A stretch of DNA of 64,000 nucleotides from Paracoccaceae bacterium (GTDB lineage Bacteria > Pseudomonadota > Alphaproteobacteria > Rhodobacterales > Rhodobacteraceae). Shown here piece after piece: positions 5,616-55,097 of this stretch (positions within the stretch are counted from its first letter, which is position 1; each line of letters starts with the position of its first letter). The notes beneath the pieces were generated by a model. The model was given only the letters and a program-made list of their open reading frames with translations. It was not told where the DNA came from and did not search any database. The stretch lies in NCBI GenBank assembly GCA_028874915.1, contig JAPPHA010000054.1, forward strand, positions 1-64,000. Reading direction: 5' to 3'. Both the position numbers and the translations under genes were made by a program.

Positions 5616-5778
5616 CGGATTGTTCCTTCGGAAGACCGCACCAGGACGACGGATTGCGCCGCCGCCATATACGCAAGACCGATCAGCTTGTCATGGCGGT
5701 CAGGAACACCTCCATCCTCATTCCCGCAGTTCCGGTTCGGTCACGGGACTGCCGTTGCGCCCGGTCCCCGGGTCGAAG

Positions 5779-31107: not shown

Positions 31108-31553
31108 GGTTCCCGCTTCGGGCATGGGCGGGACCGGAGGCAAATCTTCGACTTTCGGTCACCTCCAGACGAAACGCACCGAACGGAACCATTGCATTCA
31201 CGTCGCGACTCGGCGGCACCGATCGCTTCCGTCGCCACAGAATTCGGGAGTTGGCACCATGACTCCGACGGGCAAAGCTGCAAGCGCGAATCTCCACGAC
31301 TGTCTGCATTTCCGGTCATCCGACCGCCAAGATCTTCCGGGGATGAACCGGACCAGGGTTAGTGCGTGTCAAAAAACTCCATTTTCGCTGGCCACGCCAC
31401 TGCCTTTTTCAACCCTGTCGTGACCGATTTTCAATCGCACCGTCAACAGGCAAATGGACGACCGGACCCGACGGGTTCCCCCTTCCGGAAATCATGATTG
31501 CATCGGCCGCCACCACTTCGCCCACCCGATGGATCCGTTGTCAATCCTGTCGA
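31108..31553. other. Intergenic stretch, no gene recognised
   Basis: About 0.45 kb between the lactonase gene end and the MttB-like gene start. Short frames on both strands show no recognisable motif. It should hold the promoter of the MttB operon. Confidence 0.5.
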
Positions 31554-33783: not shown

Positions 33784-33836
33784 AGAGGTCCGTTATTGAC
33801 CATTGATTGACATAGGTATCAAACCGGTTTTAAAAT
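33776..33836 (+). promoter_or_regulatory. Promoter and candidate operator of the ABC sugar operon
   Basis: A near-consensus promoter, TTGACA (33807-33812), an 18-base spacer and TAAAAT (33831-33836), precedes the binding-protein gene. A perfect 10-bp palindrome AAACCGGTTT (33821-33830) lies inside the spacer. GGTATCA occurs twice as a direct repeat, at 33776-33782 (overlapping the regulator start codon) and 33815-33821. Either element could be the operator of the adjacent GntR/LacI hybrid regulator. Confidence 0.6.
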
Positions 33837-33880
33837 TCGGCCATTCATTGAGACCAGAATCTAACATGGAGGAACCCGAT

Positions 33881-35122
33881 ATGAAAGCCTTGGTGACAGC
33901 AGCGGCAGTAGCCCTGCTCGCGGGCGCCGCAGGCGCACAGGACTCCTACACATTCAAGATGCCAAGCTGGATGTGGGAAGAGGGCATCGTCGGAGAGTGG
34001 AACAAGGACCGGGTGGCGGCGTTTGAAGCCGAGAATCCCGGCATTTCCGTCGACAAGACCCTGATCCCGAACACGCACTATGAACAAACCCTGATTACGC
34101 AGATCGCGGCCGGCGATGTTCCCGACTTCATGCCAGTGTTCACCAACATGCTCGCACCGATGATCGACGCCGGCATCCTCGCTCCAATGGATGACTGCAT
34201 CGAGGCATCCGGATTTGGGGACCGGATACTTCCCTCGGTCAGTTTCGCTCAAGTTGACGGCAATACGTACGGTGTTCCGCTGACGATGAGCCCGCAGTCA
34301 CTGCTCGTCAACAAGCAACTGTTGGCAGCAGCAGGTGTCGAAATCCCCACAAACCTGGACGAGTTCTACGCGGCGGCAAATGCCGTAAAGGAAAAAACCG
34401 GCGAATTCGGTTACGGATTTCCGAATGATACGGCGAGTGCCATCCATGTCTACATCAACAGCATGCACTGGCTGATCGGCATGGGGTCGGACTGGTCGCA
34501 ACCCGACGGAACCATTACGGCCAATGATGAAGCCGCTGTCACGGCCATCAGCTGGATCAAGCGTTTCCTGGACGAAGGTCTCAGCCCCAAGGGCCTGGGC
34601 TCCAAGACGGTTCGCCAGATGTTCGCGGACGGCAAGGTCGCAATGCTCTTTGACGGCCCATGGGTGGTCAGCACGGTCAAGACCATCAACCCCGATCTTG
34701 TCCCGCACGTCACGTTCGAGGTCATGCCGACACCGACCCACGCGGCAATTACCGGAGGCGCATTCTACGTCATCCCGAGTGATTCCCCCCATCCGGACGA
34801 TGCCTGCAAAATGCTGAACGTCTTTTACGATCCGGCCGCACAGCAGAGATACCTGGAGGACCTGGTGCAGATTCCCGGTACCATCGTGGAACCCAGCGAT
34901 GCGTTCCTCAAGGAGGTTCCATACGCTGGCACCATGGCCGAGATTGCGGCAAAGTATCCCGGTGGAATTGGCTATGCTCCCCCCGGTTACGAAATCCAGG
35001 CCGCCGAGTTCCGGCAGATCGTGGTCGACGGCCTGTCCAGGATCTACTCCGGGGACATGTCGGTCCAGGAGGGTCTTGACGCCCTTCAGAACCAGCTGGA
35101 GAACTGGACGAAGACCCTCTGA
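33881..35122 (+). CDS. CUT1-type sugar ABC transporter, binding protein
   Basis: A 413-residue periplasmic binding protein (SBP_bac_1 family). The signal peptide is MKALVTAAAVALLAGAAGA, probably cleaved before QDS. Later marks are YEQTLITQIAAGDVPDFMP, YGVPLTMSPQSLLVNKQLL and MLFDGPWVVSTV, all typical of sugar-binding proteins of the maltose/glycerol-phosphate type. GGAGG lies 8 bases before ATG 33881. It is the first gene of a six-gene operon with two permeases, an amidohydrolase, a threonine synthase-like enzyme and the ATPase. Confidence 0.92.
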   Translation: MKALVTAAAVALLAGAAGAQDSYTFKMPSWMWEEGIVGEWNKDRVAAFEAENPGISVDKTLIPNTHYEQTLITQIAAGDVPDFMPVFTNMLAPMIDAGILAPMDDCIEASGFGDRILPSVSFAQVDGNTYGVPLTMSPQSLLVNKQLLAAAGVEIPTNLDEFYAAANAVKEKTGEFGYGFPNDTASAIHVYINSMHWLIGMGSDWSQPDGTITANDEAAVTAISWIKRFLDEGLSPKGLGSKTVRQMFADGKVAMLFDGPWVVSTVKTINPDLVPHVTFEVMPTPTHAAITGGAFYVIPSDSPHPDDACKMLNVFYDPAAQQRYLEDLVQIPGTIVEPSDAFLKEVPYAGTMAEIAAKYPGGIGYAPPGYEIQAAEFRQIVVDGLSRIYSGDMSVQEGLDALQNQLENWTKTL

Positions 35123-35148
35123 ACACTCCTGGTGTTGTCAAGGAGAAC

Positions 35149-35177
35149 GCCCCGGCCGGCAAGGAACCGGCCGGGGC
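35149..35177 (+). terminator. Intercistronic 11-bp GC hairpin
   Basis: GCCCCGGCCGG and CCGGCCGGGGC enclose a 7-base loop (CAAGGAA), 26 bases after the binding-protein stop and 41 bases before the first permease start. There is no T-tract. It probably partially terminates transcription or protects the 3' end, so that more binding protein than permease is made. Confidence 0.6.
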
Positions 35178-35218
35178 ATCCGGGACGTTGAAACGCCGAT
35201 GACCAAGAGGAACCTCGC

Positions 35219-36121
35219 GTGAAGCGAGCATTCGCCCGGAGGTTCAATCACCCCGAGTTGCTGCCCCTCTGGCTGCTAACCCCGGCCTCTGTCGTCCTCA
35301 TCGTGATTCTGATCTGGCCGATCGCACAGGGAATCCTGCTCGGGTTTTTCAACACGCGCATCCTGAACTACAAGGCCGGGCGTTTCATAGGACTCGCCAA
35401 CTACGATGTCCTGTTGTCCGACCCGTTTTTCTGGAACTCGCTGAAGGTGACGGTCTACTACGGTGTCGCGTCAATGAGTTGCACGTATCTCCTGGGCCTG
35501 TCCTTCGCCCTGCTCCTGAACCGGTCATTGCCGCTCCGCGGAATCATCAGGACGATTTTCATCCTCCCCTGGGCAGTCCCGGAAGTCGTGGCAGTCCTGA
35601 TCTTCATCTGGATGCTCGACGCCCAGTACGGGGTCATCAACTACTTCTTCGTACAGGCAGGCTTCCTGGATGCTCCCGTAGCCTGGTTGGCCGAGGCTGA
35701 CCTTGCCATGCCGGCACTGGTGCTGATCACAAGCTGGCACCAGTTCCCGCTCGCCTTGCTGATCCTCCTGGCCGGCCTGCAGACCATTCCGCGGGAAGAA
35801 TACGAAGCCGCGATGGTCGACGGGGCCGGAGCGCTCTCCAGGTTCATCCATGTCACGCTGCCGGGATTGCGTTCTGTGAACGTCATTCTGATCCTCATCC
35901 TGATCCTGAATTCGTTCCGGCGGGTTACAATGATCTATGCAATGACGGGCGGTGGACCGGCACGGGCAACCGAAACGCTTTCGATCCTGACCTACAATAC
36001 GGCCTTCACATACCAAAAGATTGGCTATGCTGCCGCCATTGGCACGGTTCTCCTGTTGATCCTGCTGGCATTCAGCCTCGTCTATTTCTTCACGATTATC
36101 CAAACCCGGAGAGGCGTGTGA
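35219..36121 (+). CDS. CUT1-type sugar ABC transporter, permease 1 (MalF-like)
   Basis: A 300-residue inner-membrane protein with six hydrophobic segments. The cytoplasmic EAA loop that docks the ATPase is EEYEAAMVDGAGALSRFIHV near residue 195. The segment RTIFILPWAVPEVVAVLIFI is typical of the family. GTG 35219 follows AGAGGAA at about 9 bases. Its last codons overlap the second permease by 4 bases. Confidence 0.92.
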   Translation: MKRAFARRFNHPELLPLWLLTPASVVLIVILIWPIAQGILLGFFNTRILNYKAGRFIGLANYDVLLSDPFFWNSLKVTVYYGVASMSCTYLLGLSFALLLNRSLPLRGIIRTIFILPWAVPEVVAVLIFIWMLDAQYGVINYFFVQAGFLDAPVAWLAEADLAMPALVLITSWHQFPLALLILLAGLQTIPREEYEAAMVDGAGALSRFIHVTLPGLRSVNVILILILILNSFRRVTMIYAMTGGGPARATETLSILTYNTAFTYQKIGYAAAIGTVLLLILLAFSLVYFFTIIQTRRGV

Positions 36122-36954
36122 ATCCGCGTACCAAGACAGTCTTGATCAGCGCGACGCTGTTCGTGCTGACATTGGTTTTCGCGGGGATTGTGTTCTTCCC
36201 GTACTACTGGATGATCGTGTCTTCGCTGGAGGCCGCGAGCCTGTTCGAATGGCCGCCCCGCCTGGTCCCGTCAAGCGTCACGATGGAAGCTTACGTGAAG
36301 ATCTTCACCGAACGGGACGTATTCACCTGGTTCAAGAACACCGCCTTCGTCGCGAGCACGACATCCGTATTTTGCACCCTTGTTGCGATCAACGGTGGAT
36401 ACGCCTTGTCCAGATTCAGGACGCACGCCACGACTGCGTTTTCGATATTCATATTGTTTTCCCAGCTACTTCCGGCGACGCTGATTGTCGTTCCGCTCTA
36501 CGTCATCTTTCGCCAGACAGGTCTCTACAATTCATTGATCGGCCTGGCCATCGCCGACGCGGCGTTCGTACTTCCGCTGGCGACCTGGCTCATGAAAGGG
36601 TTTTTCGATCGAATTCCGGTCGAAGTCGAGGAGCAAGCGATGGTTGACGGCTGTACGCGGGTTGGCGCGTTTTATCGGATCGTGCTTCCGTTGGCATTGC
36701 CCGGACTCGTGGTTGTTGTTGCCATGAGCTTCATTACCGGGTGGGACGAGTTCTTTCTTGCCCGGACCCTGATTTCGTCGCAAAGCAACTGGGTTTTCTC
36801 CGTCGGCCTAACGTCGTTCGAAACCCAGTATTCCATCGCCTGGGACGAGATGATGGCCGCAGCCGTGGTGTTCGCCTTGCCGGCGGTCTTCTTCTTCCTC
36901 TTCGTACAGCGATATCTCGTGTCCGGGCTGACGAGCGGAGCAGTGAAGGGCTGA
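36118..36954 (+). CDS. CUT1-type sugar ABC transporter, permease 2 (MalG-like)
   Basis: A 278-residue partner permease with six hydrophobic segments. FFPYYWMIVSSLE near the N-terminus and the EAA loop VEVEEQAMVDGCTRVGAFYR (about residue 170) identify the family. It starts at GTG 36118 inside the end of the first permease gene. The next gene, an amidohydrolase, begins 3 bases after its stop, so it is clearly in the same transcript. Confidence 0.92.
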   Translation: MNPRTKTVLISATLFVLTLVFAGIVFFPYYWMIVSSLEAASLFEWPPRLVPSSVTMEAYVKIFTERDVFTWFKNTAFVASTTSVFCTLVAINGGYALSRFRTHATTAFSIFILFSQLLPATLIVVPLYVIFRQTGLYNSLIGLAIADAAFVLPLATWLMKGFFDRIPVEVEEQAMVDGCTRVGAFYRIVLPLALPGLVVVVAMSFITGWDEFFLARTLISSQSNWVFSVGLTSFETQYSIAWDEMMAAAVVFALPAVFFFLFVQRYLVSGLTSGAVKG

Positions 36955-36957
36955 CCG

Positions 36958-38220
36958 ATGGCCTTCCCTGGCAGCCATGAACCCATTGTCCTGCATTGCG
37001 ACAACGTGTGGATCGACCCACCAGGGCACTTCGAACCGAAATCCGTCGAGATGGCCGGGGGCCGCATTGAGGCTGTCCGAGACCGGACGCCGGCCCCGGC
37101 CACCGGAACCTCGAATACGGGAATCGATCTCGGCGGCGCCTACCTGATGCCGGGCTTGATCAACACCCATGTACACCTGGAGTTTTCGGCCAGCCCGTAC
37201 CCGCTCCGGGACTTCAACGGCGAGTCTGTTTCAGCGCGGATGGCGCGCGCCATCCGGAACGCTCGATCGATGCTCCGGAGCGGGGTGACGACGGTGCGGG
37301 ATTGCGGCTCCAGCCTGGACCTGTTGTACCATGTTCGCCGCAATCGGGACCGCCATGTCCTGCCGCGGCTCTTGCTCTCCGGCCCCCCGATCACGGTGCC
37401 GGGAGGTCATCTGGGCGTTTTCGGAGGCGAGGTCCGGGGACCGGACGATGTGGCGGCGGTTGTATCACGGTTGATTTCCGCCGGCGCCATGTCGCTGAAA
37501 CTGATGGGCAGCGGGGGCGTGATGACTCCCGGAACCCATCCGGAAAACGTCGCCTTTTCGCAGGACTTGTTTTGCCAGGTCGCCGATGCCGCCCGCACGC
37601 ACAATGTCGCGAGCGTGGTCCACGTACTCGCCACGAAGAGCGTGAAGCGCGCCGCCCTGGCCCGGTTCGACAGCCTCGAACACTGCGCGTTTTTCTGTCG
37701 GTCCGCCAATGGCCGCCTCGAGCGGAAGTATGACGCAGTGGTTGCCGGCATCGTGGCCGATTGCGGTGTGGCGATCATGGCGAACCTCTCGACCGCCACG
37801 CGCTCGCATGGAACTCTCTTGCTGGAAGGAAAGCAGGGAAACCTGGACTCGCAGCACGCACTGGACCAGCACGACGTTATGCTGGAAAACTTTGCGAAAT
37901 TCGTCGATTTGGGCATCCCGATCGTTTGCGGGACGGATGCCGGTGTCCGGGACACGCCGTTCGAGGACACCTGGGTCGAACTGGAACTGATGGCCCGATC
38001 GGGCATGTCGAATGTCGAGGTGATCCGGTCAGCTTCCCTGACGGGCGCCCACGTCCTGAAACTGGATGGAAAGGTGGGACGAATTGCCGCGGGATATTCG
38101 GCCGACTTTGTCGTCCTGAAGGAATCCCCGCTTTCGGACATCTCGTCCTACCGCTGCCCGTTGGATGTTTTCAGCGCCGGGCACCGGATCGACCTGGCAT
38201 CGTCCCGCGGAACGGGGTGA
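36958..38220 (+). CDS. Metal-dependent amidohydrolase inside the ABC operon
   Basis: A 420-residue amidohydrolase-superfamily protein. The metal-binding pattern is complete: THVHLEF (near residue 67), a probable carboxylated Lys in MSLKLMGSGGVM (about 180), His residues in VVHVLATKS and LEHCAFF, and Asp in CGTDAGVRD (about 322). The pattern resembles the subgroup that includes Xaa-Pro-type carboxypeptidases and imidazolonepropionase-like enzymes. It starts 3 bases after the permease stop. It probably acts in the cytoplasm on the imported compound, cleaving a C-N bond (inference). Confidence 0.87.
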   Translation: MAFPGSHEPIVLHCDNVWIDPPGHFEPKSVEMAGGRIEAVRDRTPAPATGTSNTGIDLGGAYLMPGLINTHVHLEFSASPYPLRDFNGESVSARMARAIRNARSMLRSGVTTVRDCGSSLDLLYHVRRNRDRHVLPRLLLSGPPITVPGGHLGVFGGEVRGPDDVAAVVSRLISAGAMSLKLMGSGGVMTPGTHPENVAFSQDLFCQVADAARTHNVASVVHVLATKSVKRAALARFDSLEHCAFFCRSANGRLERKYDAVVAGIVADCGVAIMANLSTATRSHGTLLLEGKQGNLDSQHALDQHDVMLENFAKFVDLGIPIVCGTDAGVRDTPFEDTWVELELMARSGMSNVEVIRSASLTGAHVLKLDGKVGRIAAGYSADFVVLKESPLSDISSYRCPLDVFSAGHRIDLASSRGTG

Positions 38221-38223
38221 TCC

Positions 38224-39477
38224 TTGCCATTCCATCTGAAATGTCTGGAATGTGGTCACATCTCAGATTTTGCGGAACACTACTCTTGTCCCGAATGCGC
38301 CGGGGAACTGAAGCTTCTGTATGATCATGCAACGGTCCGTCTGCGTGGCGGGTTTGCACGAAAATGGCGGAAGACGGCAGACATGTTCACGCGATTCGGT
38401 GAGCTCTTGCCGCTTCGGACCGCCGCAACGGCGATAACCATGGGAGAAGGCAATACGCCCCTGATCCGGGCAAGAAATCTGGGGACTCGGTTGGGGGTCC
38501 ACGAACTCCATCTCAAGCTGGAATGCTGCAATCCAACCGGTTCATTCAAGGACCGGCAGGTGAGCATTGGCATGTCCGTCGCCCGGCAATTCGGCCGCAC
38601 CAGATTCGCCGCGATTACGTCGGGCAATGTCGGGAATTCGCTGGCTGCCTTTGCGGCAAGACTGGGAGCGACGGCATACATCTGGGTGTCGCGGAATACG
38701 GAGAAATCGAAGCGGCAGCAAATCGACGTATTTGGAGCCCAGGTCTTCACGATCGAGACCGGGATCGCGAACGACAACGCATTCGACAATCCATATGAGG
38801 CGGCAGTTCGCGCATTTCCGACGTTTTGCCGTGAACATGACCTCGTGCCGATGACATCCGCACGATCGGTCAACCCGTTCATGGTCGAAGGCGCCAAAAC
38901 GATCGCTTACGAGATATGCGCCGATCTGGGACGCTGTCCTGACGTTGTGGCTGCACCGGTTGGCGGAGGTGGATTGGTAGGTGGCCTTAACGAGGGCTTT
39001 CGTGATCTCAAGGAGATCGGCTTGACAGACCGGATCCCGAGAATGGTTGCTGGCCAGCCGTTGGGATACTTTGCGGGAATCGACCAGGTTGATGATCCCG
39101 AGTGCGGGGGAGCCCGCCCACTCGATGCAAAGTGGGCGAATGGCGTTATTCAGGATTCCGGTGGGGTTCTTCACCGTCTGACCCGGAACGAGATCGTTGC
39201 GGCGCAGGCCGACCTCGCCGGAAAGGAAGGTATTTTCGCGGAACCCCGCGGAGCCTACGCACTTGCTGCGCTTGCGACCGAAGCGGCCATGGGACGTATT
39301 GAAAGGGACTGTATTGCGGTAGCAATCGTTTCCGGGACCGGCCTCAAGGACATGGCGACGGCGATCGAAATCAGTGCCCGGCACAGCGCTCCTTCATCGA
39401 CAGTCGCTTCGATCTGGGATTCGAAACTCGATCCGGCAACTGGGAACAGGACGACACATCGGGTTGAAGGGAATTGA
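38224..39477 (+). CDS. Threonine synthase-like PLP enzyme
   Basis: A 417-residue fold-type II pyridoxal-phosphate enzyme. An N-terminal zinc ribbon (CLECG at residues 7-11, CPECAG at 22-27) precedes the catalytic core, as in one branch of threonine synthases. The PLP Lys is in NPTGSFKDRQVS (near residue 103), the phosphate loop is VGGGGLVGG, and ITSGNVGNSLAAF is the conserved substrate loop. TTG 38224 must be the start because the zinc ribbon begins at residue 7. It is embedded in a transport operon rather than with hom or thrB, so it may be a catabolic lyase or dehydratase rather than ThrC. Confidence 0.85.
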   Translation: MPFHLKCLECGHISDFAEHYSCPECAGELKLLYDHATVRLRGGFARKWRKTADMFTRFGELLPLRTAATAITMGEGNTPLIRARNLGTRLGVHELHLKLECCNPTGSFKDRQVSIGMSVARQFGRTRFAAITSGNVGNSLAAFAARLGATAYIWVSRNTEKSKRQQIDVFGAQVFTIETGIANDNAFDNPYEAAVRAFPTFCREHDLVPMTSARSVNPFMVEGAKTIAYEICADLGRCPDVVAAPVGGGGLVGGLNEGFRDLKEIGLTDRIPRMVAGQPLGYFAGIDQVDDPECGGARPLDAKWANGVIQDSGGVLHRLTRNEIVAAQADLAGKEGIFAEPRGAYALAALATEAAMGRIERDCIAVAIVSGTGLKDMATAIEISARHSAPSSTVASIWDSKLDPATGNRTTHRVEGN

Positions 39478-39480
39478 CGG

Positions 39481-40560
39481 ATGGCGAGCGTTGAATTCCT
39501 GCGCGTGGCGAAGTCGTTCGGGGCAGTCACTGCCGTCGCTGACATCAACTTTGAAATCAAAGACGGGGAGTTTGCTGTCCTGGTTGGCCCGTCCGGATGC
39601 GGCAAGTCCACGCTGTTGCGAATACTGGCCGGCCTTGAGACTGCTACCACGGGATCGATCAAGGTCGGTGATCGGGTCGTTGACGATCTTCAACCGAAGG
39701 ACCGCGACGTGGCGATGGTCTTCCAGAATTACGCACTTTATCCCCAGAAAACAGTCGCCGCAAACATGGGATTTCCCTTGAGAATGCGCGGCGTCGGCAG
39801 AATGGAAACAGAAAAAAGGGTTCTCGAAACAGCTCGGACACTCGGGTTGGAAGACCTGTTGAAACGCTATCCGAAACAGCTGTCCGGGGGGCAACGGCAG
39901 AGGGTGGCGATGGGCCGGGCGATCATCCGGAACCCGAGCGTGTTCCTGTTTGACGAACCGCTTTCAAACCTGGATGCGAAACTCAGGGTTAGGATGCGTG
40001 CGGAAATCAAGGAACTCCAACAGCGTCTCAAGACAACGACCGTTTACGTCACGCATGATCAGATCGAGGCGATTACCATGTCGGACAAGATCGTCGTGAT
40101 GCGGAATGGTCGGGTCGAACAAGTCGGCAGCCCTCTCGACGTATTTGACCGCCCCGCGAACAGATTCGTTGCCGGATTCATAGGATCACCGGCAATGAAT
40201 TTCCTGGAGGGGCAGATTGTGTCGTCCGGCAATGGACAGGAGTTCGTCACCGCGAGCGGCCTGGCTTGCCAATTGCCTGACATGTGGAGCCAGCCAGTCA
40301 ACCAGTGCGCGTCGATTGGAATCCGTCCCGAACACATTGACTTGGCGGAAGAGGGAACTCCCGGTGCATTCAGCCTGCGCATTTCGGTCGTTGAGCCGAC
40401 GGGAGCCGACACAATGATTATCGCGAGGAGTGGCACCGACGAACTCTCGGCAATGATCAAGGGGAGGCACCGACTCGTTCCCGGGGACTCCATTTGTCTA
40501 AAGCCCATGCCGGGGATGCTTCATTTCTTTGCCTCGGATGGTACGGCGATCCGGGTTTGA
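39481..40560 (+). CDS. CUT1-type sugar ABC transporter, ATPase (UgpC/MalK-like)
   Basis: A 359-residue ATPase with GPSGCGKSTLLRILAG, the signature LSGGQRQRVAMGRAI and Walker B VFLFDEPLSNLDAKLR. The C-terminal 120 residues form the regulatory TOBE/OB region found in MalK and UgpC. It starts 3 bases after the threonine synthase-like gene and closes the six-gene operon. Its position after two enzymes shows that enzymes and transporter are expressed as one unit. Confidence 0.94.
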   Translation: MASVEFLRVAKSFGAVTAVADINFEIKDGEFAVLVGPSGCGKSTLLRILAGLETATTGSIKVGDRVVDDLQPKDRDVAMVFQNYALYPQKTVAANMGFPLRMRGVGRMETEKRVLETARTLGLEDLLKRYPKQLSGGQRQRVAMGRAIIRNPSVFLFDEPLSNLDAKLRVRMRAEIKELQQRLKTTTVYVTHDQIEAITMSDKIVVMRNGRVEQVGSPLDVFDRPANRFVAGFIGSPAMNFLEGQIVSSGNGQEFVTASGLACQLPDMWSQPVNQCASIGIRPEHIDLAEEGTPGAFSLRISVVEPTGADTMIIARSGTDELSAMIKGRHRLVPGDSICLKPMPGMLHFFASDGTAIRV

Positions 40561-41744: not shown

Positions 41745-42369
41745 GTTTTGAGTTTCCCATTGGAATATGAGGTTCCGGATCCACTCAAACGTGCTATCGC
41801 ATTCGTATGTCCACCTGGCAACGGGTGGGCCGAGCGCACTTCCCGATGTGGTCGTGGTCATGTGCAGATCGTTCTGCAAAACGGAATGGACAATCGGTCC
41901 TGTTGTGCCGCGCCTGCGATCAACGATCACTTTCGGTGAAGGCAGGAACACACACCGAGGCCAAGAGCAAGTTCAAGACCGCCGTTGTGGAGATCACACG
42001 GTTACTAGACCCCCGTACGACAACCGCTCGTGGGTCGATTCGGCCAATTTCAGGAGGATTTGGCGACCGGGGCAACATCGGTACGGAGCCGTCAACGCGC
42101 GTACGCCCGGGTCACAGCGTGAGAGATCGTCCTGGTTCCCACAGCCGGTCGTTGAAGTCTTCCTGACGGTTTTGCCTTGACCGCGAACAGTGGACCCACG
42201 ATCATTTCGCCGCCCGATCGGCGTTGAACGATCGGGCGACTTGCTCAAGGCCCTCAAGATACTTCCGTAGGGCCGGCGTCAGAGACCCGGCGAGAGATCT
42301 GAATGTGAAGTTCACCGATTGAGTTCCGGATTCTTCCGGCAATTCAGGCACGAAGAAAGGCTACTCCGA
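41745..42369. other. Intergenic stretch upstream of the MetE-like gene
   Basis: About 0.6 kb between divergent genes, with no convincing coding sequence on either strand. It contains the perfect inverted repeat listed separately and an AAAGG ribosome-binding site just before 42370. Confidence 0.5.
42211..42238. repeat. Perfect 10-bp inverted repeat
   Basis: CGCCCGATCG and CGATCGGGCG surround an 8-base loop, about 130 bases before the MetE-like start. There is no T-tract. It may be an operator, a leader hairpin or a terminator of an unseen transcript. Confidence 0.5.
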
Positions 42370-43524
42370 ATGAGACACAGCACCGACCGAATCCTCACGA
42401 CGCATGTCGGCAGTCTTCCGAGGCCGCATGACCTCCTGGACCTTCTGAAACGACGGCTTGAAGGAGGCAGCGTGGACGAGACGGTCTTCGCCAACCGGTT
42501 GAGCCAGGCCGTCGACGAGATGGTGGGAAAGCAGGTCGACGCAGGCATCGACATCGTTGCCGACGGAGAAATGTCGAAGCCCGGCCACGCCGTCTACATC
42601 AACGAACGGCTGGAGGGTTTCGAGCCCCGGCCTGACGCAGACCTCGGACTTTACAAGGAGGAAAGGGAAGCGTTTCCGGAGTTCTACGACGACTATTTCA
42701 AGCGTGCCCATCTTGGCGCCGCCATTACGGCCACCGCTCCGATGTGCTGTGTCGGGGACATTCGCTATGTCGGTCATGAAGCGCTGCAGACTGACCTGGG
42801 AAATCTCCGGGCCGCTGTCGACCGGTTCGGGTGCGCCGAAGCCTTCATGCCTTGTGCCGCGGTGACAGGCGTCGGATTCAACGAACACTACGACACCGAA
42901 GAAGCCTATCTGTACGCCGTTGCCGATGCGCTGTCGGAAGAATACCGGACCATCATCGAGTCCGGTTTTCTTCTGCAGGTCGACGACCCTTTCTTGCCGA
43001 ACGTCTACATGGACAATTCCCTCGATGATGCCCAACGCATCGCCAAGGCCATCACGTATGTCGAGGCGGTGAACCACAGCCTTTCGGGAATTCCTGAAGA
43101 CAAGGTCCGGTTTCACACCTGCTACGGAATCAACCAGGGGCCCCGGATTCATGAACCCGACTTGCCGCAAATGATCGAGCAGGTCCTCATGGTGAAGGCC
43201 GGAGCCTATTCCTTCGAGGCGGGGAATCCCCGCCATGAACACGAGTACCACCTGTGGGAAACCGTCAGATTGCCGAAGGGTAAGATCATCATTCCAGGCG
43301 TTATCACACACGCGACCAGCGTGATCGAGCACCCGGAATATGTGGCCGAACGTATCGTAAGGTTTGCCGAACGCGTGGGCCGCGAGAATGTCATCGCAGG
43401 CGTCGACTGCGGATTCTCGTCCCAGGCGACCTACAGGACCGAGGTCGAGCCGCGAATTGTCTGGGCCAAGCTCGAAGCCCTGTGCGAAGGGGCGAAGATC
43501 GCCAGTGACCGGTTGTGGCCTTGA
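42370..43524 (+). CDS. MetE-type zinc methyltransferase-like protein
   Basis: A 384-residue protein of the cobalamin-independent methionine synthase C-terminal family. It has the opening TTHVGSLPRPHDL and the thiol-activating zinc site: HTC in RFHTCYGINQG (near residue 260) and a late Cys in IAGVDCGFSS (near 345). It is half the length of MetE, lacking the folate-binding N-terminal half. Such short members include methyltransferases and epoxyalkane:coenzyme M transferase-like enzymes. It may transfer a methyl or alkyl group to a thiol. ATG 42370 was chosen by homology; an AAAGG site precedes it. Confidence 0.85.
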   Translation: MRHSTDRILTTHVGSLPRPHDLLDLLKRRLEGGSVDETVFANRLSQAVDEMVGKQVDAGIDIVADGEMSKPGHAVYINERLEGFEPRPDADLGLYKEEREAFPEFYDDYFKRAHLGAAITATAPMCCVGDIRYVGHEALQTDLGNLRAAVDRFGCAEAFMPCAAVTGVGFNEHYDTEEAYLYAVADALSEEYRTIIESGFLLQVDDPFLPNVYMDNSLDDAQRIAKAITYVEAVNHSLSGIPEDKVRFHTCYGINQGPRIHEPDLPQMIEQVLMVKAGAYSFEAGNPRHEHEYHLWETVRLPKGKIIIPGVITHATSVIEHPEYVAERIVRFAERVGRENVIAGVDCGFSSQATYRTEVEPRIVWAKLEALCEGAKIASDRLWP

Positions 43525-43765: not shown

Positions 43766-44791
43766 ATGATGGATGCACCAGGATTGCCGTCGCCAGAAGT
43801 CCACATCGATGTCCTCAATCGGTTCGACATCGAAGGCGCGACCCTGACCGACGCCGAAATCCTGACCGCTGTCGAGACCGGTCTGGCCATGCAGGGCCAA
43901 GGTCTGACCGCGCTTGAACCCAGGACTCACATCCGTCCGCGCGCCGGTGCCGACGGGCACTTCAACGTCCTCAGGGGTTGGATTGGCGGAGACATCGACA
44001 GTGCCGGAACCAAGGTGGTCGGGGACTTTGTCGACAACTATCGGGAAGGGCGCCCGTCCGAATACGGAATTCTGACGCTCTTCGACCCAAGGACCGGTGC
44101 ACCAAAGGCAATCCTTGATGCGACCGGAATCACCGAAATGCGGACCGGAGCGATGACGGCCATCGGGGCCCGCCACCTCGCGCCACCGAACCCCAGGGTC
44201 CTGGGCCATGTCGGTGCCCGCGGAACCGCGTACTGGAACGTGCGTCTGCTCGCCAGTCTCTTTGACTTCGACGAAATCCGGGTCCACTCCCGGCGCCCGG
44301 AGAGCCGCGATCGCTTCGCCGCCAGGCTCGCATCCGAGCTCGATCGCACGGTCATCGCCACCGAAGACTGGAAAAGCTGTCTCGAGGGTGCCGACATCCT
44401 GGTGGAAGCTTCCCGGCTTCGCAGACCCGAACCACACTTTCGTACGGAATGGATCAAGCCGGGATCACTGGTCGTCCACTACGGAACCATGTCGGCCGTG
44501 GAGCTTTCGATCACCGGAATCATGGACAAGATTGTCATGGATGACTGGGGACAGGCTCATGGGTCGTTCGGTGCCCTTCGCGAGCATGTCGACCAGGGTC
44601 TGCTGACCGCCGACACACTGCATGCGGAGCTTGCAGACATTGTCGTCGGTACCCGGCCAGGACGCGAGACTGATCACGAGACCATCCTTTTCTGGCACCG
44701 CGGGCTGTCGCTTTCCGACATCGCCCTTGGTCACGCCTTCCTCCGGAAAGCCCATCAACTCGGCCTCGGCCAACGAATCCGGTTTTGCTGA
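43766..44791 (+). CDS. Ornithine cyclodeaminase/mu-crystallin family protein
   Basis: A 341-residue NAD(P)-dependent enzyme of the OCD family, which includes ornithine cyclodeaminase, alanine dehydrogenase and ketimine reductases. Marks are AILDATGITEMRTGAMTAIG (residues 113-132), the nucleotide-binding LGHVGARGTAYWNVRLL and VHSRRPESRDRFA. The usual GxGxxG nucleotide motif reads GHVGARGTA, a slight deviation. The stop overlaps the following lyase start by one base (TGATG), so the two act together, perhaps on an alpha-amino acid. The 241 bases before it hold no recognisable gene. Confidence 0.87.
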   Translation: MMDAPGLPSPEVHIDVLNRFDIEGATLTDAEILTAVETGLAMQGQGLTALEPRTHIRPRAGADGHFNVLRGWIGGDIDSAGTKVVGDFVDNYREGRPSEYGILTLFDPRTGAPKAILDATGITEMRTGAMTAIGARHLAPPNPRVLGHVGARGTAYWNVRLLASLFDFDEIRVHSRRPESRDRFAARLASELDRTVIATEDWKSCLEGADILVEASRLRRPEPHFRTEWIKPGSLVVHYGTMSAVELSITGIMDKIVMDDWGQAHGSFGALREHVDQGLLTADTLHAELADIVVGTRPGRETDHETILFWHRGLSLSDIALGHAFLRKAHQLGLGQRIRFC

Positions 44792-46386
44792 TGATCATCC
44801 TTGGACCCGGGTTCGGCTCCCTCCGACTCCAGGACTTCCTGGCAATGGCCACCGAAGGCGCGACGATCGTCCTTGCTCCCGACACCTGGCAAAGGATTGC
44901 GCAGGATCATTCGACAGTCCTGGCGTCCGCAAGGGGAAACGAACCTGTCTACGGGTTGAACACGGGGCTCGGAGCCAATCTGAACTGCAGGATTCCGTTC
45001 GATGAAATCCCCGGCTTCCAGATTCGGATCCTCAGGGGCCGCGCGGTCGCCGTCGGCAGTCCCTTGCCGGAACCAGTCGGGCGCGGCGTTCTCCTGGCGC
45101 GGATTCTCTCGGCCAGCCGGGGCGGGAGCGGGATTTCACCCGCGCTGCTCGGCCATATTGTTGCCGTTTACAATGCCGGGCTGTCGCCGGTTATCCCGGA
45201 AACCGGATCCATCGGTGCCGGCGATCTGACCCAGAACGCACATTTTGGCCTCTCCATTCTGGGTGAAGGCGAGCTGTGGCGAAGCGGATCGCGAATCGAC
45301 GCAGGCAGCGCGCTCCGCGATTCCGGACTGTGCCCACCGGACCTGGCAGCGGGAGACGCGATGGTTCTCGTCAACCATTCGGCACTGACCACGGTGGCCT
45401 CGGGGCGGGCGATCGACGACTTCGCCCTGTGTCTGGCTATGGCCCGATGTTCGATCGTCCTGTCACTGGAAGGCTTTGCAGCCAACCGAAGCGTTTTCGA
45501 TCCGGACGTGAACGCGCTCTTGCCGGCTCCCGGACAGTTGCAGGCCTCCGACTGGTTTCGCCGGGCATTGGACGGCGCCGACGCGACGCCGCGACGCATT
45601 CAGGATCCTATCAGTTTCCGGGGCGTCGCGCAGGTCATTGGCGCCGGGTTTTACGGTCTGAACCACGCCGAAGACGTTCTTGCGGGAGCCTTGAACGGTG
45701 TCTCAGACAGTCCGGTCGTAACTCCCGACGGCCGCTTCTTGTCGACGCCGAATTTCCAGTCACCGGTGCTGGCCCTTGCCCTTGAATCACTGTCACTGAC
45801 CCTGTCGATGATGGCCACCGGAGCCATTCAGAGAATGCAGAGACTCATGGCGCCTGCAACGTCGGGGCTCCCGCGTTTCCTGTCCCCCGATGGGGGTGCC
45901 TCCGCCGGCTTGGTGCCTCTGCAGAAGACGGCTGCTGCCCTATCCAGCCGAATTCGCCATGGTGCCGAGCCGGCCATTCACGATCCGTCGCCTGTTTCCG
46001 AAAACGTCGAGGACATGGCGCCGATGACACCGCTCGCCGCGGAAAAGCTCTCGAAGCAGGCGGAGTCCTTCAAGATTCTGGCAGGGCTTGAGGCCCTGGT
46101 CGCCGCCCAGGCCCTGGATCTCCGGCAACCCGTCGGCATGGGCCGACTCACGGGTTCGCTCCACCGCGCCCTCCGTGCCCGGATTGCCGCGCTCGGCGCA
46201 GACCGGTCTCTCGCCCGCGATTCGGGGGAGGCCGCAACCGTTATCGAGGCTGCCGCGCGCCAGGTCATGCGGAATGATCGGGCTGACGCTTCCGGTGCCG
46301 TTCGCGACCCGGTGGCGGATTCGGAATCAACTGTCGGTTCTGTCGACTTCGCACGTCACTCCAGTGTGGCGTGGACCGCCACCTGA
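44791..46386 (+). CDS. Aromatic amino acid lyase (HAL/PAL) homologue with altered MIO triad
   Basis: A 531-residue homologue of histidine and phenylalanine ammonia-lyases. It keeps the catalytic-loop Tyr in VYGLNTGLG (Tyr54), IQDPISFRG in place of the usual QDPYS-R, and a C-terminal helical bundle. The cofactor-forming Ala-Ser-Gly is not present: the region reads GSIGAGDLTQNA (residues 139-150), one residue shorter than the canonical GSVGASGDL. The conserved NG(S/T) segment also reads LVNHSALTT. ATG 44791 overlaps the OCD stop; the 3' end overlaps the convergent DUF6505 gene by 31 bases. Ammonia-lyase activity by the usual mechanism is doubtful. Confidence 0.8.
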   Translation: MIILGPGFGSLRLQDFLAMATEGATIVLAPDTWQRIAQDHSTVLASARGNEPVYGLNTGLGANLNCRIPFDEIPGFQIRILRGRAVAVGSPLPEPVGRGVLLARILSASRGGSGISPALLGHIVAVYNAGLSPVIPETGSIGAGDLTQNAHFGLSILGEGELWRSGSRIDAGSALRDSGLCPPDLAAGDAMVLVNHSALTTVASGRAIDDFALCLAMARCSIVLSLEGFAANRSVFDPDVNALLPAPGQLQASDWFRRALDGADATPRRIQDPISFRGVAQVIGAGFYGLNHAEDVLAGALNGVSDSPVVTPDGRFLSTPNFQSPVLALALESLSLTLSMMATGAIQRMQRLMAPATSGLPRFLSPDGGASAGLVPLQKTAAALSSRIRHGAEPAIHDPSPVSENVEDMAPMTPLAAEKLSKQAESFKILAGLEALVAAQALDLRQPVGMGRLTGSLHRALRARIAALGADRSLARDSGEAATVIEAAARQVMRNDRADASGAVRDPVADSESTVGSVDFARHSSVAWTAT

Positions 46387-50111: not shown

Positions 50112-52217
50112 TTACGCCTGATCAGGCGCCTCCAGCCGGCGGCGGGCGGCCTGACACATCCTGTCGGCCATGATCGCGATGATCGCCATACCTGCGCCTG
50201 CAACCAGCCCGATTCCGACATCGCCCTTGCTCAGGCCGATGTAGACCTGCTGCCCGAGCCCGTTCGTGCCGACCAGCGCCGCGATCACGAGCATTGCAAT
50301 AGCGTACATGATCGTCTGGTTGAGACCCAGCATGATGTTCGGAAGTGCGAGGGGCAGTTTGACCCGCCACAACAACTGGTTGGGCGTGCATCCCATCGAC
50401 CGAGCGGCCTCGACGACGTCATTCGGGACATTTCGAAGACCGTGCTCGGCGTACCGGAATGCAGGGACGTAGGCATAAGCGATAATTGCGAGCAATGCCG
50501 TGAATTCCCCGATCTTGAAGACCATGACGATCGGAATCAGGATGACGAAGAGCGGCATCGTTTGCAGCGTATCGTTGACGGGGCGCATGATCCGGGAGAC
50601 ATGGTTGGAGTGAGCCGCCCAGATTCCGAGTGCCGAGCCGGCGACGAAGGCCACGATGACCGCAATTCCGCAGAGCCATAGCGACAGCATGGTCTTTTCC
50701 CAAGCGCCGGAGACCAGAAGAAACATGAGACCGGCAAAAACACCCAGAGCCAGCGATGTTCCGCCCAGCCGATAGGCGATCATGGTGAAGACGGCGACCA
50801 GGGCCGGCCACGGCAGTTCCGTGATTCCGAAAAGGAACAGGCATCCGGCGATTGCAATCGCCGCCGCGGCGTTCACACCGAATTTGCGAAATCCGGCAAA
50901 GGCCAGCAGCGCCAGCCCCGCAACGGTGATCGCCATGTGATTTCCGGTCCACACGAAACCCCATGTGAAGGGTGAGACCGTCTGCGCCAGGCCGATCTTG
51001 AGCGGCAACATGGCATAGAACAGGCTGATTCGCTTGATTTCCTTGATGGCCGGCTGAAAATTCACGACGAACCAAGTGATGAAATCGTTCATCGGACCGG
51101 CTGGGGAAACGACCCAGGTCTCGGGATACGTCATCAAAATCGGCACGATCCGCCCGACCAGGGCGACGGCAAGCGTTGCGCCCAAGGCAATAACCCAGAA
51201 GCGGTTCCGAAGGATCCAGGTTTGTCCCCCTGCGGTTTCGTCCCTCCGCGTCGCCAGGCCATTGGTTACCCGGTCCAGAATCATGGCCATCAACGCGATG
51301 ACGATACCGGCAAGCAGGCTTTCTCCGAACTGGGCCTTCCGCATTGTGCTGAGAACCTCCCAACCAATGTCGCTGGTTCCTCCGATGATCGAAGCGACAA
51401 TAACCATGCTGAGCGAGGCCATCGTGGTCTGGTTCACGCCAAGGAGAAGTTGGCGAAGTCCCGTTGGCACCCGAACACGCCAGAATAGCTGACGGCGGGT
51501 TGCTCCCGACATCAGGCCCGAATCGATGATGTCAGGGGCCACGTTCCTAAGGCCGACAATCGTGTTCCGGACCATGGGTGCGAAGGAATAAAGAACGCTG
51601 GCAATCAGCCCGACAACCGGGCCGAAGCCGAACAGGATCAGGATAGGAAGCAGATAGGCAAATGCCGGAACGGTCTGCAGCACGTCGAGCGTCGGCATGA
51701 TGATGCGTTCGGCCGGACGTGAAACGAAACCCCAAATCCCGATGGTGAAGCCGACCAAAACCGCCAGCGGAACGGAAATTGCCACGAGCGACAGGGAATT
51801 CATACCCTCTTCCCAGTAGCCGATGACCAGCATGTAACCGAGGCCGAGAACGGTGAAGAGCGCAAGTGTCCAGCCTCCGGCCCTGTAGGACACCGCACCG
51901 GCAAACAGCATGAGGGCCGGCCAGGGAAGCCAATGCAGGATGTCGCGGACCCAGGTCATGGGATGGTCGAGCAACCAGGCAATCGCCCGAAAAAACGGCT
52001 TCGTGGTCGCCACAATGACGTCCTCGGCCTGGTTGATCCATTCGACGATTGGAAGAATCAGAACTTCGGGATAGCTGCCGAGCCAGGCGATCCGTCCCGA
52101 CAGAGCAATACATCCTGCCGTGAACAAAAAGACAGCCAACCAACCCAGCACTTTTTGGTCCTTCGCCGAGAGGAAGAACGGTCCGGCCGATCCTGCGATG
52201 GCTGGGGAGGTGGGCAT
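50112..52217 (-). CDS. Betaine/proline-type ABC transporter, tandem-fused permease (ProW-like)
   Basis: A 701-residue protein with two complete ProW-type permease halves. Each has a leading set of membrane segments, a TMP-type segment (DVLQTVPAFAYLLPILILFG near residue 180; DTLQTMPLFVILIPIVMVFK near 555) and an EAA-type loop (SGATRRQLFWRVRVPTGLRQ; RSMGCTPNQLLWRVKLPLAL). Fusion of both permease chains allows one polypeptide to form the channel. It is the last gene of proX-proV-proW, 26 bases after proV. The palindrome CGCCTGATCAGGCG spans its stop codon. Confidence 0.9.
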   Translation of the reverse strand: MPTSPAIAGSAGPFFLSAKDQKVLGWLAVFLFTAGCIALSGRIAWLGSYPEVLILPIVEWINQAEDVIVATTKPFFRAIAWLLDHPMTWVRDILHWLPWPALMLFAGAVSYRAGGWTLALFTVLGLGYMLVIGYWEEGMNSLSLVAISVPLAVLVGFTIGIWGFVSRPAERIIMPTLDVLQTVPAFAYLLPILILFGFGPVVGLIASVLYSFAPMVRNTIVGLRNVAPDIIDSGLMSGATRRQLFWRVRVPTGLRQLLLGVNQTTMASLSMVIVASIIGGTSDIGWEVLSTMRKAQFGESLLAGIVIALMAMILDRVTNGLATRRDETAGGQTWILRNRFWVIALGATLAVALVGRIVPILMTYPETWVVSPAGPMNDFITWFVVNFQPAIKEIKRISLFYAMLPLKIGLAQTVSPFTWGFVWTGNHMAITVAGLALLAFAGFRKFGVNAAAAIAIAGCLFLFGITELPWPALVAVFTMIAYRLGGTSLALGVFAGLMFLLVSGAWEKTMLSLWLCGIAVIVAFVAGSALGIWAAHSNHVSRIMRPVNDTLQTMPLFVILIPIVMVFKIGEFTALLAIIAYAYVPAFRYAEHGLRNVPNDVVEAARSMGCTPNQLLWRVKLPLALPNIMLGLNQTIMYAIAMLVIAALVGTNGLGQQVYIGLSKGDVGIGLVAGAGMAIIAIMADRMCQAARRRLEAPDQA

Positions 52218-52243
52218 CGGAATCCGGATCGACCCCCGCGGTC

Positions 52244-53335
52244 CTAAACCGGATCCGGCAACGATATCGGGGAGGCCGAGGCGCGGTTGACGCCGGAGAG
52301 GCTGCGTATCACGCCATCCGGCGTCACAATGCCCAGTACGTCGCCGTCGGTGCCTTTGACAAGCACGCCCGACGGATGGCGCGCCAGCTGCGGCAACAGG
52401 TCTTCCACAGGCAGGTCCATGGGAGCGACCGGCATGGCGCGGGTGTCGTCCACGATAGCATCCATGATGGGCTCGACGATCTGTCCGGCCGTGAGCACAC
52501 GGATCCGTGGGACCTCGCTCGTGAACTGCGCGACATAGTCGTCGGCTGGTGCGAAAACCAGTTCTTGTGGCGTCCCGATCTGGACGATCCGGCCGTCCCG
52601 CATGATGGCCATTCGATCCGCGACCCGAAGGGCCTCGAGAAAGTCATGGGTGATGAAGACGATCGACTTGTGCAGGAGTTGCTGGATCCGCAGGAATTCA
52701 TCCTGCATCTGCTTGCGGATCAGTGGGTCAAGCGCACTGAACGGTTCGTCGAGGAACCAGATTTCGGGTTCAACGGCGAGAGACCGGGCAATGCCGACCC
52801 GCTGCTGCTGGCCCCCGGAAAGCTGTCTTGGAAAACTGCTCTCCCGACCCTCAAGCCCGACCAATTCAATCACCCGTTCGACCTGAACGCGCAACTCTGA
52901 ATCCTGGATCTTCTGGAGGCTCAGCGGAAATGCGATGTTCTCGAATACAGTCAGATGCGGAAGCAGGCCAAAGTTCTGAAAGACCATCCCCATCTTGTGC
53001 CGGCGAATCTCGATCAGTTCCCGATCGGAGGCTTCCAGCAGGTTCTCACCATCGAGGATAACTTCGCCGAATGTCGGTTCGACCAGTCTGGAGAGGCACC
53101 GGACAACGGTGGACTTTCCGGAGCCGGAAAGTCCCATGATGGCGAAGATCTCGCCGGAGAGCAGATCGAAATTGACATCAATTGCCGCCGGAATGAACCC
53201 CTCGTCGCGCAGCTTTCCAATGAAGGAATCTGTCGCATTGCGATGATCGTCTGACTGGAAGTATCGTCCCGGATTCGAACCGTAGACCATCCACACGTTT
53301 CGGCAACGCAACTTGACCTGGCTTTGGGATGTCAT
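52244..53335 (-). CDS. Betaine/proline-type ABC transporter, ATPase (ProV-like)
   Basis: A 363-residue ATPase of the OpuA/ProV family. Walker A is GLSGSGKSTVVRCLSRLVEP, the signature LSGGQQQRVGIARSLA and Walker B IWFLDEPFSALDPLIRKQ. An approximately 100-residue C-terminal extension (from about 255) resembles the CBS-domain region that senses ionic strength in this family. ATG 53335 is 126 bases after proX, with a hairpin in the gap. Confidence 0.92.
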   Translation of the reverse strand: MTSQSQVKLRCRNVWMVYGSNPGRYFQSDDHRNATDSFIGKLRDEGFIPAAIDVNFDLLSGEIFAIMGLSGSGKSTVVRCLSRLVEPTFGEVILDGENLLEASDRELIEIRRHKMGMVFQNFGLLPHLTVFENIAFPLSLQKIQDSELRVQVERVIELVGLEGRESSFPRQLSGGQQQRVGIARSLAVEPEIWFLDEPFSALDPLIRKQMQDEFLRIQQLLHKSIVFITHDFLEALRVADRMAIMRDGRIVQIGTPQELVFAPADDYVAQFTSEVPRIRVLTAGQIVEPIMDAIVDDTRAMPVAPMDLPVEDLLPQLARHPSGVLVKGTDGDVLGIVTPDGVIRSLSGVNRASASPISLPDPV

Positions 53336-53425
53336 CGGGACAACCCGGAAGCCCGCAACTCAGCCAGCCGGAATTCGGCGATCATCGCCAAGGATGTCAC
53401 CCCATGTCGGGCCATCCACAATCGT

Positions 53426-53449
53426 GGCAGGCGGCCAAGGCCGCCTGCC
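53426..53449 (-). terminator. Intercistronic 10-bp hairpin after proX
   Basis: GGCAGGCGGC and GCCGCCTGCC enclose a 4-base loop, 12 bases after the proX stop on the minus strand. There is no T-tract, so it probably protects or attenuates the message between binding protein and ATPase genes. Confidence 0.6.
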
Positions 53450-53461
53450 GTTCGGTCACCG

Positions 53462-54433
53462 TCACATCGATGCCGAAATCCAGGACTTCCACGTGTCCTG
53501 GTTTTTTCCCATCCACTCTTGAACGACGTCTTCGAGGGCCCGCTTGTTCTGGTCAATCTCGTTGATCATGTGGTTGTGCTCGGCATTGGTCAGCGTGAAG
53601 TGTCCAAGCAACCTGACCGCGCCCGGCCACTCTTCGGTTGCGGTGCCGGAGACGATCTTGTCGACCGTAGCCTGCTGGAATCCACAGGCCATTTCGCGCG
53701 TCTGTGTTTCCTCGACGCACTCTCCGTCAGCGTCATTCCACTGGACCCACTCCAGATCGTGAACCGCGAACAACCAGTGTGGCTGCCAGAACATGATCAG
53801 GATTGGATCGCCCGTGGCGATCGCGCTGTCGATTTCAGCAACCATTGCGCCCTCGCTGCCGCCCGGGACCGGCGTAAAGGGCAAACCGATGGCCTCCACG
53901 ACATCCTTGGACCGAGTGCCCCAGTCTGCCGGGTAGGTAACGAGTCGGCCGTTCGGAAACGTTTCCGACGTCGCAAAGGCCTGCGTGCACTCGTAAAGGG
54001 CATTGAAGTCGGGAAGGCCCGGACACTTCTCGGCCATGTAGGGCGGATAGATCCACCCTTCCTGCGGCTGAAGACCGAGCAGGCCGAGATTCACGATATC
54101 ACCGGATTCGATGGCCTTCGGATAGATGTCACTGACACTGTTCGTCCACACTTCCGGTTGAACATGCAGTTCACCCTGGGCGATCGCCTGGAACTGAGGC
54201 AGCGCACCGGCCGTGATGAATTCCACCGAGTAGCCCATTTCCGCAAGAACGGCGCCGGCGATGTGGGCCGAAATGTGCTGGCCGGTCCACTCATTGACTG
54301 CGATCTTGATGGGATTGTCAGACTCCGGAATATCCGCGCTGGCCGGCCCGATCACGCCGGACATTGAGGCAAATGCGACCCCCGCAGCCGTGGCCACGCA
54401 CTTCCATCGACTTGGGACTGGAATACTACCCAT
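53462..54433 (-). CDS. Betaine/proline-type binding protein (ProX-like)
   Basis: A 323-residue periplasmic binding protein (OpuAC family). It has a signal peptide of about 35 residues (WKCVATAAGVAFASMSGV, ending PASADI). Later marks are IKIAVNEWTGQHISAHI, LHVQPEVWTNSV and PILIMFWQPHWLF; aromatic residues in such positions form the cation-pi box that binds quaternary amines. ATG 54433 has AAGGAGAG 6 bases upstream. It is the first gene of proX-proV-proW and stands divergent to a Rieske oxygenase. Confidence 0.9.
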   Translation of the reverse strand: MGSIPVPSRWKCVATAAGVAFASMSGVIGPASADIPESDNPIKIAVNEWTGQHISAHIAGAVLAEMGYSVEFITAGALPQFQAIAQGELHVQPEVWTNSVSDIYPKAIESGDIVNLGLLGLQPQEGWIYPPYMAEKCPGLPDFNALYECTQAFATSETFPNGRLVTYPADWGTRSKDVVEAIGLPFTPVPGGSEGAMVAEIDSAIATGDPILIMFWQPHWLFAVHDLEWVQWNDADGECVEETQTREMACGFQQATVDKIVSGTATEEWPGAVRLLGHFTLTNAEHNHMINEIDQNKRALEDVVQEWMGKNQDTWKSWISASM

Positions 54434-55097
54434 GTCAACTCTCCTTCTGTTGTCACTGCACGGCCATACTGTCACGTTTGCGGTAAGCTGTCATTGATCA
54501 AATTTGGCCGCCGGTCTCCGATGGCGACACAATGCAGACCCGGTCGGACGGAACCACGAAAACCATTCAGGCTTGCCGAACCGGCGGGACCGGTCTGACC
54601 GGACCGGATCATCGCACTCGACCGTCCTGATCAGCGAATCGCCCCGAACCACGCACGAATCGAGGCAGGACGTTCGCCCGTTCACTGCCCAAGTTCCGCA
54701 ACGTCTTCGGACGAAGAATCGGCGACGGGAACGTCATCGCGGACATTTCGTGGGAGTGGATTTGTCTGGAATCGGGACGAAGTTTTCGGTGCGGAGACAA
54801 CTCGGCAGACCAGGATTGATACCGTGTCGACATGCAGCAGATGTCCCCTGCCTAACCAATCCTCGACCACGGTCATGCACAAGACTCGATTCCGACCTTC
54901 TTGGCGGGTCGACTGTCCGGGGTGACGGTTCGGCAGCCAGGTAATCGTGCGGAACCGCGGGCAGGCCCGTCCTATGGATCGTCTGTCCAAGACACCGCTG
55001 GATGACGTTCGGATTGACGGGACCGGCCGGGCAGGCATCATGCAGGCGATGAACGCGATACGCTGACCCCTTCCCCGCCGGAACAGAGGAGGCCTCC
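54434..55097. other. Intergenic region between divergent proX and Rieske genes
   Basis: About 0.66 kb with no recognisable gene on either strand. It should hold the promoters of both transcription units. No operator or riboswitch could be identified by eye. Confidence 0.5.

Follow-up and report, generated by a model that had tools for sequence, protein, structure and literature searches.

Ergothionase, the ergothioneine trimethylamine-lyase of Treponema denticola (PDB 6s7j/6s7q), expels a quaternary amine without electrophilic help. OCD-family enzymes of other pathways take N-substituted or imino acids as their substrates. The passage on ergothionase in PMC13405746, which cites Maurer et al. 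2019 (doi 10.1002/chem.201901866), describes it as an enzyme without MIO; that 2026 paper concludes that ergothionase is rare and states that it left divergent homologues out of consideration (PMC13405746). The MIO-less branch described below has a wide distribution. We compare these systems with a lyase encoded in the window, by which we mean the whole stretch of 64,000 nucleotides analysed from a Paracoccaceae genome (contig JAPPHA010000054.1). Like the window lyase, ergothionase has the PF00221 fold, lacks the MIO serine, keeps Tyr53, and has Leu or Ile in place of Tyr280, and it is the best fold match. It differs in carrying His83 where the window lyase has Arg, the two fall in separate clades, and the window lyase, unlike ergothionase, is paired with an OCD enzyme in a genome without thiohydantoin desulfurase (over cut-off). 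HutH of Pseudomonas putida (PpHAL; PDB 1b8f) has its fold, Tyr53, Arg283, and Glu414 in common with the window lyase at 30 to 31% identity; unlike P. putida HutH, the window lyase has no Ala-Ser-Gly triad, no Tyr280, and no His83, and it scores below the hutH cut-off. The partner gene product is a member of the OCD/mu-crystallin family (PF02423), as are archaeal alanine dehydrogenase (1omo) and pyrroline-2-carboxylate reductase (6t3e), but it stays under every curated equivalog cut-off.

The lyase gene and its active site

The features of the window that bear on the argument are as follows, with pocket residue positions taken from the alignment and not from structural superposition.

42361..43524, + strand: MetE-C-terminal-like gene (PF01717), upstream of the OCD-lyase pair, unit membership uncertain
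43766..44791, + strand: OCD/mu-crystallin-family gene (PF02423, E=8.7e-49), near-constant neighbour of the lyase
44791..46386, + strand: MIO-less HAL/PAL-family lyase gene (PF00221), 531 aa, alternative TTG start at 44785
44950..44952, + strand: Tyr54 (PpHAL Tyr53), catalytic base, kept (alignment)
45040..45042, + strand: Arg84 (PpHAL His83), altered side-chain pocket residue and clade mark (alignment)
45205..45240, + strand: MIO-loop site, codons 139-150, GSIGAGDLTQNA (sequence, alignments)
45610..45612, + strand: Ile274 (PpHAL Tyr280), second catalytic Tyr gone (alignment)
45619..45621, + strand: Arg277 (PpHAL Arg283), substrate carboxylate binder, kept (alignment)
46009..46011, + strand: Glu407 (PpHAL Glu414), kept (alignment)

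The reading frame (44785/44791-46386, +) is open, and from the ATG at 44791 it encodes a protein that belongs to PF00221 (Lyase_aromatic; Pfam E=2.6e-109) by fold and sequence. It does not reach the hutH models (330/524 and 309/539 bits versus cut-off, the latter for the NCBIfam equivalog). The first-pass annotation, made from the letters alone, had noted a missing MIO serine at residues 139-150, a retained Tyr54 and fold, an NHS at a second conserved segment, and an intact gene coupled to an OCD homologue, and all of these observations hold. The loop GSIGAGDLTQNA is one residue short of the GSVGASGDL of MIO enzymes: it reads GSIGA-GDL, with Ser143 (PpHAL numbering) deleted, and the Ala-Ser-Gly triad for MIO is absent from both sequence and alignment. 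NHS stands where HAL has NGT, and the OCD stop codon and the lyase ATG share a single base (TGATG, 44789-44793). MIO-less members of the family were already known, as ergothionase (PDB 6s7j) illustrates, a point that the first pass missed; the absence of MIO is in itself not new.

An AlphaFold2 model of the window lyase (pLDDT 88.9, pTM 0.89), for which two rows from plasmid records were left out of the input, has ergothionase 6s7j as its best Foldseek match (E=7e-33, TM 0.86/0.92), a shared fold that does not prove function. VIA-align of the model gives Z 43.8 and rmsd 2.1 over 490 residues with ergothionase, and Z 41.6 with PpHAL.

Elsewhere in the window genome, contig C71 holds hutF, hutI, and an intact HutH, while urocanase genes lie on contigs C51 and C59; in this 97.5% complete genome, no thiohydantoin desulfurase, thiourocanate hydratase, or NtaA-type monooxygenase scores over cut-off. 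Because HutH is separate and intact and thiohydantoin desulfurase is missing, the window lyase is neither the HutH of the cell nor part of the known ergothioneine route. The same genome contains a third, very divergent HAL homologue (L049 6598-8190; G000:C26) with AATGPGEV at the MIO loop.

Homologues, co-varying positions, and tree

The first-pass annotation had proposed looking for a clade with the same deletion, and alignment reveals one: the loop is one residue shorter in 100 of 131 homologues, among them one 65% identical to the window lyase (L052). The set was drawn from the family of the window's genome, plasmids, and 80 GTDB genome loci, and the alignment also included PpHAL and the ergothionase of T. 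denticola. Its 100:31 ratio of MIO-less to MIO sequences is no natural frequency, because the pattern used to scan the collection contained the loop motif (together with a YG..TG segment); positions 83 and 280 lay outside the pattern, and the co-varying residues and gene order are independent of it. Position 280 (PpHAL numbering throughout) is Leu, Ile, or Val in 99 of the 100 MIO-less sequences and Tyr in 30 of the 31 MIO sequences, the remaining one being a deposited Y280F mutant. Position 83 is Arg in 93 of the 100 MIO-less sequences and His in 30 of the 31 MIO sequences. Tyr53 is present in every MIO-less row with letters at that column (99/99), and the MIO-less and MIO sets both retain Tyr53, Gln277, Arg283, and Glu414. 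The residue before the loop Asp varies in the MIO-less set (Gly 75, Ser 14, Ala 11), and Gly, Ser, and Ala swap even among close relatives of the same gene order. The MIO-less branch spans Alpha- and Gammaproteobacteria and Actinomycetota, and the loop deletion is the mark of a clade and not a lone mutation.

On trees built without the motif columns, from which positions 83 and 280 were also left out, a single change divides MIO from MIO-less sequences; since the trees are unrooted, they do not tell loss of MIO from gain. The window protein stands in its own clade (support 98/94), grouping neither with T. denticola ergothionase nor with most ergothioneine-cluster lyases (support 100/100). Loop length, residue 280, and residue 83 are three simple marks that separate ammonia-lyases, ergothioneine-cluster lyases, and the window clade. 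With them, the range of betaines that bacteria of soil and sea cleave by eliminating an amine, and the origin of trimethylamine, become directly testable questions. The novelty lies in a widely distributed clade that carries Arg83, is nearly always partnered by OCD, has neighbourhoods of the betaine or histidine kind, and is annotated as histidine ammonia-lyase (e.g., WP_286578964.1, WP_054185170.1); for the window lyase, hutH is a mis-annotation. NCBIfam yielded no model naming this clade, nor one for ergothionase itself. A description of the OCD and MIO-less lyase pair was not found in the open-access literature on MIO-less lyases, OCD with HAL, and hercynine/thiourocanate catabolism, which is weak evidence of absence.

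Gene neighbourhoods and ergothioneine clusters

In 78 of 92 loci, OCD is the gene immediately before the lyase, in 66 of them overlapping it by exactly 4 nt, and the pairing is seen in Alphaproteobacteria, Granulosicoccaceae, and Streptomyces; some loci have a lyase with no adjoining OCD. By family, the partner is predicted to be an NAD-dependent imine-forming or imine-reducing enzyme. In one Granulosicoccaceae locus, a D-glutamate cyclase (PF07286) gene follows directly downstream of the pair (L056 8407-9252). The neighbours of the window operon are a sugar-type ABC system, amidohydrolases, and the MetE-like gene, which we considered as part of the unit but which is not near the lyase in any other locus; no betaine transporter or hut gene directly adjoins the operon. 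Other genes of the window include a run at 32674-40560 that comprises a GntR/LacI-type regulator, a sugar-type ABC system, an amidohydrolase, and a threonine-synthase-like PLP enzyme. Some 4 kb downstream of the lyase, the other strand encodes a ProW/ProV/ProX-like glycine betaine/choline ABC transporter (50112-54475, − strand), and an MttB-family (trimethylamine/betaine methyltransferase) gene (29527-31143, − strand; PF06253, E=3e-188) lies 14 kb from the lyase. Two other loci (L065, L047) each have a 4-nt overlap between an MttB-family gene and a MIO-less HAL homologue.

In rhizobia, Bosea, Streptomyces, and Actinophytocola, quaternary-amine transporter operons (OpuC/OpuB/OpuA) contain or adjoin lyases of the window clade, and the binding protein of these operons is nearest to ProX/OpuBC/EgtUC-type proteins. 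The Rhizobium/Phyllobacterium operon runs from an OpuC-type binding protein through two OpuB-type permeases, an OpuA-type ATPase, (DUF427), and two NtaA/DmoA-type flavin monooxygenases to OCD and the lyase; PhnD/SsuA-type binding proteins are also found in rhizobial operons. In Actinophytocola (L092; HAL homologue at 5074-6522, minus strand) and Bosea (L103), the lyase is inside the transporter operon with no OCD directly before it.

In marine Rhodobacteraceae, the OCD-lyase pair comes after hutF-hutI-hutH-hutU and a flavin reductase (L060, L063, L064), after hutF-I-H-U (L067), after hutU (L057), or after hutG (L059; N-formylglutamate deformylase, 351 bits, cut-off 279). Within the window-type group, 4 of 13 lineages have hut genes next to the pair, with 0.22 expected (P ~4e-5) under a null that we call generous, three hut loci in a 3.5-Mb genome. 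The hut operons adjoining the pair hold their own intact HutH, and the hut link is strong only in the Rhodobacteraceae relatives. In a further locus (L046 2681-11125; G151:C74), a hut operon of hutF, hutI, hutH, hutG, and hutU precedes a MIO-less HAL homologue that belongs to a different clade and retains His83 (GSVGASDLVPLAQI).

If MIO-less proteins are betaine lyases, ergothioneine-utilisation clusters should hold MIO-less homologues. Nine such clusters were fetched through matches to NCBIfam's thiourocanate hydratase and thiohydantoin desulfurase models; eight contain a HAL homologue, which is MIO-less in seven, and two contain an Opu-type betaine transporter. All seven MIO-less lyases have His83 and Leu280, with loops GSIGC-ADI, GSMGC-ADI, or GSIGC-GDI, and their gene clusters suggest that they act on ergothioneine. 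One cluster has no HAL homologue within the stretch fetched (L143), and another, unlike the rest, has an MIO-type HAL homologue beside its thiohydantoin desulfurase and thiourocanate hydratase genes (L144 7153-8517). The sole ert-linked member of the window clade, in Rhizobium setariae (L105), is oriented divergently from the genes for ErtD, ErtE, thiohydantoin desulfurase, and thiourocanate hydratase (the last at 1024 bits, cut-off 930); its residue 83 is His, its 12.7-kb locus lacks OCD, and it is nested deep in the clade between two Arg83 sequences (support 100/99). Since this protein carries His83 among Arg83 kin, residue 83 appears to follow the substrate as read from the neighbours, in a single event. 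T. denticola ergothionase and eight ert-linked MIO-less lyases retain His83; in the window lyase the residue is Arg84.

Probable chemistry and competing readings

We give a probability of roughly 0.5 to the reading that the window lyase is a MIO-independent enzyme of HAL fold whose substrate, a betaine of the histidine type, loses an already activated amine, probably trimethylamine. In favour of it count the joint loss of Ser and Tyr280, the single change on the trees, the fold match to a MIO-less trimethylamine lyase, the MIO-less homologues of ergothioneine clusters, L105, the Opu-type transporter operons, the hut neighbours, and the MttB overlaps. The class of chemistry is moderately supported, and it probably differs from that of the ammonia-lyases, as the first pass had suggested. 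Because the MIO electrophile is missing, a free amino group would not be activated; the substrate would instead bring a nitrogen that departs readily by itself, in the form of a betaine's trimethylammonium, as with ergothionase. Tyr54 would abstract the beta proton and Arg277 would bind the carboxylate, and trimethylamine would depart to leave an alpha,beta-unsaturated, urocanate-like acid. Arg84, replacing the imidazole-contacting His83, would mark a substrate other than ergothioneine itself, perhaps a hercynine-like compound with a different, possibly anionic, ring end. The OCD/mu-crystallin-type NAD-dependent enzyme, co-made with the lyase, may serve the same pathway. Counting against this reading, simple amine elimination leaves the role of OCD unexplained, an Arg at residue 83 might point to a substrate that is acidic and has no imidazole, and the window operon stands without an adjoining betaine transporter or hut gene.

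The strongest competitor, possible though doubtful, is a MIO-independent lyase for an acidic substrate unrelated to histidine. A betaine resembling aspartate or glutamate would be one example and an N-substituted amino acid another; Arg84 would then bind the carboxylate, sulfonate, or phosphonate at the far end. The Arg in the side-chain pocket of most MIO-less sequences (93/100) would suit this competitor, as would the PhnD/SsuA-type binding proteins and NtaA/DmoA-type monooxygenases of the rhizobial operons and the substrates of OCD-family enzymes elsewhere; the recurring histidine-utilisation neighbours and L105, a member of the clade with an ergothioneine cluster next to it, argue the other way. 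Somewhat less probable still is that the Arg83/OCD clade is a distinct enzyme family in a catabolic route not described before. In that route, lyase and OCD would channel an anionic histidine-betaine derivative (e.g., ergothioneine that has been oxidised and sulfonated) into histidine breakdown; a betaine-type transporter would supply the compound, and in rhizobia the two NtaA/DmoA-type flavin monooxygenases would take part.

That the window lyase is ergothionase proper and cleaves ergothioneine is improbable, and we reject this identity on residue 83, clade, and missing ert genes. The two proteins agree in lacking MIO and Tyr280 and in their fold match, but the window lyase has Arg for His83, its separate clade is supported, neither thiohydantoin desulfurase nor thiourocanate hydratase is over cut-off in its genome, and the only ert-linked member of its clade has His83. 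We rate as no likelier a non-catalytic or regulatory relative that is a mere partner of the OCD enzyme: the near-constant pairing, the translational overlap, and the loss of two catalytic features of the family would fit such a role, but Tyr53, Gln277, Arg283, and Glu414 and the surrounding motif are conserved from Alpha- and Gammaproteobacteria to Actinomycetota, and some loci have the lyase with no adjacent OCD.

The first-pass annotation had also raised a two-residue variant of the cofactor, in which an ammonia-lyase would form an MIO-like group from a shortened triad. Some clade members do keep a Ser beside the Ala (GASDL); however, a shortened cofactor is very unlikely, and we reject it, because the residue before the loop Asp exchanges freely among Gly, Ser, and Ala in close relatives and Tyr280 is lost throughout along with the Ser. 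Loss of the Ser codon through a sequencing or assembly artefact, for which we found no supporting point, has a negligible probability, because the same loop length recurs in 100 of the 131 homologues, in independent assemblies that include complete genomes.
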